A stretch of 64,000 bases of DNA, taken from assembly GCF_029023725.1 (NCBI RefSeq), contig NZ_CP119075.1:491501-555500 (forward strand), written 5' to 3'. Made by a program: the position numbers and the translations under genes. Below are positions 21,583 to 26,637 of the stretch, piece after piece. The stretch comes from Synoicihabitans lomoniglobus. GTDB taxonomy: Bacteria > Verrucomicrobiota > Verrucomicrobiia > Opitutales > Opitutaceae. Under the pieces are notes generated by a model that made no database searches, was not told the DNA's origin, and saw only the letters and a list, made by a program, of their open reading frames with translations. The number at the start of each line of letters is the position of its first letter. The first letter of the stretch is position 1.

Positions 21583-25728
<4,146 letters not shown>

Positions 25729-25755
25729 GCTACCTTCAGTTTTCCAAAATGTTTC

Positions 25756-25789
25756 GAGCCGCTCTGTTTTTCAGAGCGGCTCTTTTTTT
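25756..25789 (+). terminator. Rho-independent terminator after rpoC
   Basis: A perfect 11-bp stem GAGCCGCTCTG/CAGAGCGGCTC with loop TTTT, followed by seven T. It lies 28 nt after the rpoC stop and ends the rpoBC operon. Confidence 0.95.
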
Positions 25790-25812
25790 GGTGACCATGC
25801 CGCAATTAATCC

Positions 25813-25927
25813 TTGTCAACGGTATCCATACTTCTGATTCTGATAGTCCCTCCCGCCAAAACCACTATGTTGAGCCTAGCTCCGTAGTGGTTATTCGCCC
25901 GGTCCTCGTGACCGGGCGATTTTTTTG
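25813..25927 (+). ncRNA. Candidate small RNA or second terminator between rpoC and rpsL
   Basis: A possible promoter (TTGTCA at 25813, 17 nt, GATTCT at 25836) precedes an RNA of about 80 nt. Two hairpins can form. The first (25860-25892) has AACCACTA/TAGTGGTT with an inner GAGC/GCTC stem. The second (25896-25918) has CGCCCGGTC/GACCGGGCG followed by seven T, a textbook terminator. The strand and length fit a trans-acting sRNA; the simpler reading is a tandem terminator for rpoC. The -10 box is a weak match. Confidence 0.4.
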
Positions 25928-26256
25928 GCCCGGACGAAGGGAAGTTCTCATTTGAGGAACAGGGCAGGGGAGGAGTGTTTCCGGTGGAGGCGACGTCAGG
26001 AAAGCTCGAAAAGGGTAAGAATTACGCAATTTCGATTTCCGAGCTTGTCATCGGGTTAAACAATCTGTGCGCTCTTCCTCCTTTTCCTCGTATTACAGCG
26101 TTCGCCACCTCGGTAGAGGGCGCTTTTATACCGCGAGCCGGACGTTTTCGCCATGGCACGCGCCAGTCTTCTTTTTCGCCAAAATTGTGCTTGATCGCGC
26201 TTTGGCGATTCTTCACGTTCCGCCTCTTTTCTCAACTTCACACCCTCGTTTCAGAC
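25928..26256 (+). other. Non-coding leader of the str operon
   Basis: This 329-bp stretch before rpsL holds no gene I can support. It contains pyrimidine-rich DNA and a second TTGTCA at about 26047 without a convincing -10. An in-frame upstream extension of rpsL exists, but it is not conserved in S12 and is rejected. A promoter for the str operon must lie here or read through from upstream. Confidence 0.6.
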
Positions 26257-26637
26257 ATGCCCACCATCAACCAGCTCGTGCGTAAAGGTCGTCGCCAAAT
26301 TGTGGCGAAGTCCAAGTCGCCCGCCCTCGATTCCAATCCGTTTCGCCGCGGCGTCTGCGTGCAAGTCATGACCCGCACCCCAAAGAAGCCGAACTCGGCC
26401 ATCCGTAAGGTGACCAAGGTGCGTCTCACCAACGGCAATGAAGTGATCGCTTACATTCCCGACGAAGGTCATAACCTGCAGGAGCACAGCATTGTGCTCG
26501 TGCGCGGCGGCCGGGTGAAGGATCTCCCGGGTGTGCGTTACCACGTCGTCCGTGGTGCCCTCGACGCGACCGGCGTCGAAAAGCGCCGCCGCAGCCGCTC
26601 CAAATACGGCGTGAAGCGTCCGAAGGAGAAGAAGTAA
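26257..26637 (+). CDS. rpsL: 30S ribosomal protein S12
   Basis: 126 residues, including [11 protein letters not shown] (streptomycin-sensitive Lys43 form) and [13 protein letters not shown], whose Asp is the methylthiolation site. S12 sits at the decoding centre. The ATG at 26257 gives the universal [11 protein letters not shown] start. It leads the str operon with rpsG 22 bp downstream. Confidence 0.99.

Follow-up and report, generated by a model that had tools for sequence, protein, structure and literature searches.

Organisation of the rpoC-rpsL interval

The stretch of DNA analysed here, 64,000 nucleotides from Synoicihabitans lomoniglobus (contig NZ_CP119075.1, positions 491,501 to 555,500 of the forward strand; hereafter the window), carries rpoC and rpsL in the same orientation, and a predicted small RNA (sRNA) gene lies between them. 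The 5' end of the RNA was placed from the position of the -10-like element (+/- 3 nt) and its 3' end from the terminator. The features of the region are:

21583..25728, + strand: rpoC, the upstream neighbour (list of open reading frames; stop at 25728; tblastn query for synteny)
25756..25782, + strand: intrinsic terminator of rpoC, a stem and then 7 T, distinct from the sRNA (terminator scan)
25813..25818, + strand: -35-like element TTGTCA of the putative sRNA promoter (CTTG at the equivalent place in 72 of 78 loci)
25836..25841, + strand: putative -10-like element GATTCT (nAnnnT in relatives), 17 nt after the -35 element (alignment)
25846..25926, + strand: predicted sRNA gene, about 80 nt (alignment, covariance model, covariation, folding)
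25846..25859, + strand: 5' tail GTCCCTCCCGCCAA (single-stranded when the window sequence is folded)
25850-25857, + strand: tail core CTCCCGCC, nearly invariant (95-100% per column, 78 loci)
25860..25892, + strand: hairpin 1, nested, with a covarying 10-bp stem, a two-base bulge and a GAGC-CTA-GCTC tip (covariation)
25895..25926, + strand: intrinsic terminator of the sRNA, with a 10-bp stem at 25895-25919 and T7 at 25920-25926 (conserved in the alignment)
26045..26050, + strand: TTGTCA belonging to a conserved promoter-like site that precedes rpsL, outside the sRNA (8-member genus alignment)
26191..26219, + strand: second rpsL promoter-like site, TTGATC, 17 nt, CACGTT, outside the sRNA (8-member genus alignment)
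26257..26637, + strand: rpsL, the downstream neighbour (open reading frame 25975-26637; start put at the ATG at 26257; frame checked)

A sequence-only reading of this DNA had claimed a promoter-like site, a nested hairpin and a terminator with seven T, preceded by a separate terminator of rpoC. We located every one of these signals, including the rpoC terminator at 25756-25782 with its own 7 T. Their number in the single sequence is no better than chance: a generic scan of the window sequence alone gave 2 terminators against 1.9 +/- 1.4 in shuffles, and the sRNA promoter-like site was absent from the list produced by a generic promoter scan of the window sequence. The evidence that we regard as decisive for the reality of the predicted sRNA is comparative.

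Distribution among relatives

When a 561-bp stretch of the rpoC-rpsL region was used in a DNA search of 57 relatives, the most widely recurring piece was query ~147-232, equivalent to window positions 25846-25931. A covariance model was built from 22 homologues (20 distinct) aligned without structure. Of 250 genomes from the window's family, 96 (100 loci) scored at least 60 bits with it; below that value the same 250 genomes yielded three loci at 43-51 bits, and the remainder reached at most 39.1. The best match outside the family in a sample of 273 genomes of the order scored 34.1 bits, and all matches at E <= 1e-6 in samples of the class (286 genomes) and the phylum (288) fell within the family, these order, class and phylum samples overlapping each other and containing family members. 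Among named genomes, a pattern scan found 65 loci, and 56 of these score with the covariance model; the nine that received no model score were dropped (L063, L077, L079, L086, L094, L095, L098, L104, L105). The titles of the 56 are Opitutaceae, Opitutae/Opitutia and Verrucomicrobia(ota), together with Opitutus, Lacunisphaera, Cephaloticoccus, Ereboglobus, Geminisphaera and Candidatus Synoicihabitans, which we take to be members of the Opitutaceae. So far, the sRNA has been found only in the window's family, which is the Opitutaceae by the titles of the named matches.

Not every member of the family carries it. Twelve family genomes with no strong match were examined and an rpsL locus was obtained from 11; the sRNA was absent from all 11 loci when the model was run with its filters off (best score 16.1 bits). 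The end of rpoC is also in view in four of them (L232, L235, L236 and L237), so the absence of the sRNA between rpoC and rpsL is real there, and the rpsL locus of L231 (G007) ends at a contig end. The low-scoring loci L054 (39 bits) and L146-L148 (43-51 bits) could represent decayed copies, or in some cases chance matches; the synteny and promoter counts include them.

One genome, G060, has four divergent copies (L140-L143) that keep the tail and the hairpin tip and differ in their lower stems and terminators. G128 has two near-identical copies, both at contig ends, that are possibly one locus. Three candidate paralogues in the window's own genome (L032-L034, at G000:C1 near 2103881, 1954812 and 889672) were rejected: they are 31-base matches at 84% that score 12-14 bits by the model. 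The similarity covers the tail and hairpin of the sRNA. Given these scores, and given that L033 adjoins an open reading frame that resembles a replication initiator by reading of its translation, the three are treated as chance or mobile-element look-alikes. Two further matches, G011:C1:3677492 (32.1 bits) and G012:C1:6891526 (23.2 bits), were set aside as mainly terminator resemblance.

A conserved, covarying structure

The nearly invariant 5' tail GUCCCUCCCGCCAA begins the predicted RNA and is followed by a hairpin and the seven-T terminator. The 81-nt product 25846-25926 folds at -37.6 kcal/mol (z -7.88 against shuffles), and the 49 nt of 25846-25894, which exclude the terminator, fold at z -5.58 against shuffles. 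Folding of single sequences gave the same hairpin 1 in the window and in six other full-length RNAs, L066 having one additional bulged base. A weak 3-bp helix takes in part of the tail in two of those six (L142 and L066); in the window and the other four the tail is unpaired. Conservation of the core CTCCCGCC at 95-100% per column holds over the 78 loci, weak copies included; the tail segment UCCCUCCC reads UCCUCCC in Geminisphaera colitermitum TAV2 (L066).

For the covariation score, 66 distinct sequences were aligned with the covariance model, an alignment that leans to the model. Over all pairs 97.3% of cells are paired, 14 of 22 pairs have changed on both sides, and in hairpin 1 this holds for 10 of the 13 pairs, with 97.4% of cells paired. 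The covariation score was 0.421 against 0.123 when shuffled and at most 0.086 with slid partners, and compensatory changes were seen in 201 cells, where shuffling gave 58.1 and sliding the partners no more than 36. A structure-blind alignment, with the RNAalifold consensus of that same alignment used as the structure, gave 97.3% paired cells, two-sided changes in 11 of 22 pairs (9 of 13 in hairpin 1) and a covariation score of 0.398 against at most 0.089 with slid partners. The compensatory changes are overwhelming. The sequence-only reading had named compensating changes in the hairpins as one test, and a lack of conserved pairing, or of a transcript start in 25830-25860, as grounds for abandoning it; covariation proved strong in both alignments, and the promoter-like site would place a start at about 25846.

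Among the homologues, hairpin 1 is almost free to vary in its lower stem, and stem and loop lengths differ by single bases in the alignment, whereas the tip is GAGC/GCUC in all distinct sequences except one, which has GAAC/GUUC; the tip pairs retain their letters in 65-66 of the 66. A paired tip conserved by letter suggests a job beyond that of a simple seed-plus-terminator sRNA. Inspection by eye found no reading frame shared among the 78 loci: inside the RNA, frames start at different points and are of different lengths. The RNA structure is conserved and non-coding.

Transcription signals and gene neighbourhood

Two of the six loci without CTTG at the -35 place, L142 and L143, are extra copies in G060; the other four are the weaker loci L146-L149. 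In fixed columns over the 78 loci the -10-like hexamer nAnnnT has its A in 58% and its T in 82%, and an A-rich stretch upstream of the tail is common to the loci. Applied to the 49 rpoC-adjacent loci, a fixed rule finds a separate terminator after rpoC and ahead of the sRNA in 39, and the sRNA terminator in 47. Upstream of rpsL, TTGTCA and TTGATC-17 nt-CACGTT are conserved in eight members of the genus, the former being the same hexamer as at the -35 place of the sRNA. A conserved pyrimidine-rich stretch follows the TTGTCA at 26045 (rpsL leader, genus), and the TTGATC at 26191 sits inside a CGCCAAAA...TTTGGCG inverted repeat. Taken together, the promoter and terminator evidence at rpoC, the sRNA and rpsL suggests three units, and the sRNA is predicted to be an independent transcription unit with a promoter-like site and a terminator of its own.

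Synteny was assessed at 78 loci, weak copies included, with adjacency defined as within 700 nt. The rpoC gene lies at most 700 nt upstream in 49 of them, and 37 of those 49 also have rpsL at most 700 nt downstream. In 22 loci whose upstream flank is in view for 700 nt or more it is not adjacent, and one of these has rpoC 4.3 kb away; the remaining seven have an upstream flank shorter than 700 nt. At nine copies neither of the two neighbours appears, 1.4 kb or more being in view on each side: L062 (Ereboglobus sp. PH5-10), L125, L073, L010 (G011), L141-L143 (the extra copies of G060), L146 and L149, of which L146 (44.8 bits) and L149 (61.2 bits) are the weaker. Two loci from the window's own genus keep the sRNA beside rpoC and have other genes, named by reading of their translations, between it and rpsL: about 1.5 kb with a hydrolase-like gene in L039, and more than 9 kb with transposase-like, fumarase-like and other genes in L040. 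The transposase-like open reading frames of L040 split an otherwise common rpoC-rpsL neighbourhood. In G011 a tRNA gene (L010 1372-1452) lies on the opposite strand, with about 50 nt separating it from the 3' end of the sRNA copy. The position between the rpoC and rpsL operons is usual, not obligatory, and the sRNA gene is thus tied to neither neighbour.

Comparison with known small RNAs

None of the families of Rfam 15 reaches its cut-off at the sRNA of the window, and the loci of 20 relatives reach none either, except for one tRNA. The best matches below the threshold in the window were to anti-hemB (24.8 bits against 49.5), the Betaproteobacteria toxic sRNA (20.9 against 50), suhB/mmgR (20.5 against 41) and SorX (19.8 against 46.6), and the similarity lies chiefly in a CCUCCC stretch and a terminator rich in G and C. 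Membership of RF02837 (anti-hemB) was rejected, 24.8 bits being below the gathering cut-off of 49.5. This best sub-threshold match (E 4e-4) has the CCUCCC motif, a hairpin and a GC-rich terminator in common with the sRNA, but the first hairpin of the family has no counterpart in the alignment. RF02278, at 20.9 bits against a gathering cut-off of 50, was likewise rejected. Its RNAs resemble the sRNA in being very short and in combining an unpaired, CU-rich segment close to the 5' end with a single small hairpin and a terminator; the members compared were ncS03, ncS05, ncS27 and ncS62 of Burkholderia cenocepacia (PMC5688073). These double-hairpin RNAs occur in several copies per genome, and the sRNA in four in one genome. 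Unlike them, the sRNA belongs to another phylum, its carriers have no Hfq that we could find, and the alignment spans the CU-rich start and the terminator while leaving hairpin 1 uncovered.

The Neisseria RNAs NmsRA and NmsRB also have UC-rich single-stranded regions and are sibling copies, but they possess three stem-loops and target the Shine-Dalgarno (SD) regions of TCA-cycle mRNAs (PMC5362039), whereas the host genome of the sRNA seems poor in SD motifs. No characterised Opitutaceae sRNA appears among the literature matches listed. We regard the sRNA as a genuine family outside Rfam 15, its novelty in print being limited to Rfam 15 and that literature.

The sequence-only reading had described the product as possibly of the Hfq type. 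A search for Hfq (PF17209) found it in none of 29 genomes, that of the window included, and was positive in five of 14 control genomes, which gives that description no support.

Target search and the Shine-Dalgarno background

In the window's own genome, the pattern GGCGGGAG followed by ATG matched 130 times and the reversed control 49 times, a count in which real sites are mixed with general G-rich and SD-like signal. With TGGCGGGAGG and ATG, eight genomes gave 38 matches, 30 of which became loci, with 12 open frames of at least 80 amino acids; there was no homology among these 12 candidate target frames of the eight genomes at E 1e-3. One pattern match (G060:C5, L191) falls on an sRNA copy itself, read from the opposite strand.

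Duplex formation was computed for 308 start regions of 313 open reading frames from 464 kb (20 stretches, L211-L230, and the window), with crude start calls. The mean for the tail was -8.3 kcal/mol at the start regions and -9.5 in upstream control DNA; 20 shuffled tails averaged -7.6 with a strongest value of -8.7 kcal/mol, and the mean of the real tail falls inside their range. Pairing of the tail was not enriched at these 308 regions relative to the upstream control DNA. With neither stronger pairing at starts nor recurrence between genomes, the target and the molecular effect of the RNA are ones that we infer.

GGAG, GAGG or AGGA stands upstream of the first ATG in 35 of the 308 starts against 23 of 308 in the control, and GGAGG in 6 against 1, pointing to an SD-scarce style of translation in this genome. 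The low counts agree with a survey (PMC10783764) in which some Verrucomicrobia, bacterium IMCC26134 included, are SD-scarce with a conserved CCUCC. With SD-like motifs near background, blocking of the ribosome binding site is not obvious as a mode of action and anti-Shine-Dalgarno blocking is unproven. A seed that pairs with G-rich mRNA sites has been put forward for the double-hairpin RNAs of Burkholderia with their CU-rich stretch (PMC5688073), and the UC-rich regions of Neisseria NmsR have been proposed and tested as anti-Shine-Dalgarno sequences (PMC5362039).

Discussion

Our findings support the sequence-only reading in placing an sRNA gene, roughly 80 nt long, between rpoC and rpsL, and the comparative evidence favours its being stand-alone: this status is supported by the promoter-like site, the terminator, the architecture, the covariation, the independence from neighbours and the lack of a shared reading frame. 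Its most likely nature is that of a trans-acting sRNA that pairs with other RNAs through its C-rich tail. We think it probable, with real room for doubt, that 25846-25926 is a stand-alone non-coding gene for a trans-acting regulatory RNA whose 5' tail pairs with mRNAs independently of Hfq. In such a scheme, sigma-70-type transcription would start near 25846 and stop at the T run, and the exposed, nearly invariant 5' tail UCCCUCCCGCC would be the seed for G-rich sites in target mRNAs. Pairing of the seed would change the translation or the stability of these mRNAs. Hairpin 1 with its invariant tip may be a stabiliser or a docking site for a protein, the terminator would end and protect the RNA, and the sRNA would act without Hfq.

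The tip that keeps its letters while the lower stem varies freely is what sequence recognition within a fixed shape would produce, and the pattern and duplex searches turned up no target. Both points favour a real RNA that binds a protein, by titration or as a scaffold, with the CU-rich tail and the GAGC-CUA-GCUC tip as its site, and the invariant tip keeps that explanation alive. We nevertheless judge it rather unlikely: RNAs that titrate proteins often bear several copies of the motif, and a 5' tail that is nearly invariant and mostly exposed is typical of a pairing seed. The usual place upstream of rpsL, with a promoter and a terminator that look like those of an attenuator, would suit an attenuated 5' leader through which a ribosomal protein or another signal regulates the rpsL operon in cis. 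This is very improbable, however, when two conserved promoter-like sites belong to rpsL itself, when about 1.5 kb (L039) or more than 9 kb (L040) of other genes can intervene, and when nine copies have neither neighbour, so that the RNA is not always in cis.

Variable context and the genome with four copies argue against such a leader and against a tandem terminator, in which the second hairpin pair would be a back-up stop for read-through from rpoC. The good terminator at the end and the closeness of rpoC, no more than 700 nt upstream at 49 of the 78 loci, are in keeping with that alternative, which the sequence-only reading had itself raised, but it fits poorly with a conserved promoter and 5' tail, a covarying hairpin 1 that is no terminator, copies without rpoC nearby, four copies in G060 and a terminator already ahead of the sRNA in 39 of the 49 rpoC-adjacent loci; we give it even less credence than the leader. 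The least credible explanation is a short conserved gene for a small protein. An open reading frame of 68 amino acids (25749-25955) does span the region in the window, yet starts and frame lengths inside the RNA vary by eye over the 78 loci, changes compensate in RNA pairs, and the lengths of stems and loops vary by single bases.

A base-pairing sRNA with a C-rich tail is the reading that we prefer. A bolder proposal, which we hold to be unlikely and a little more so than protein binding, is that of a lineage-specific core regulator whose anti-SD-like tail and GAGC-CUA-GCUC hairpin act jointly on an unusual partner. The partner, a protein or a part of the translation machinery taking the place of ordinary ribosome binding site blocking, belongs to this proposal and is just as doubtful. 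If it were true, it would represent a new mode of sRNA action in the Verrucomicrobiota. A conserved and sometimes multi-copy sRNA in genomes with no detected Hfq and few SD motifs offers a handle on riboregulation in such bacteria, and the covariance model would let annotators mark the sRNA across the Opitutaceae.
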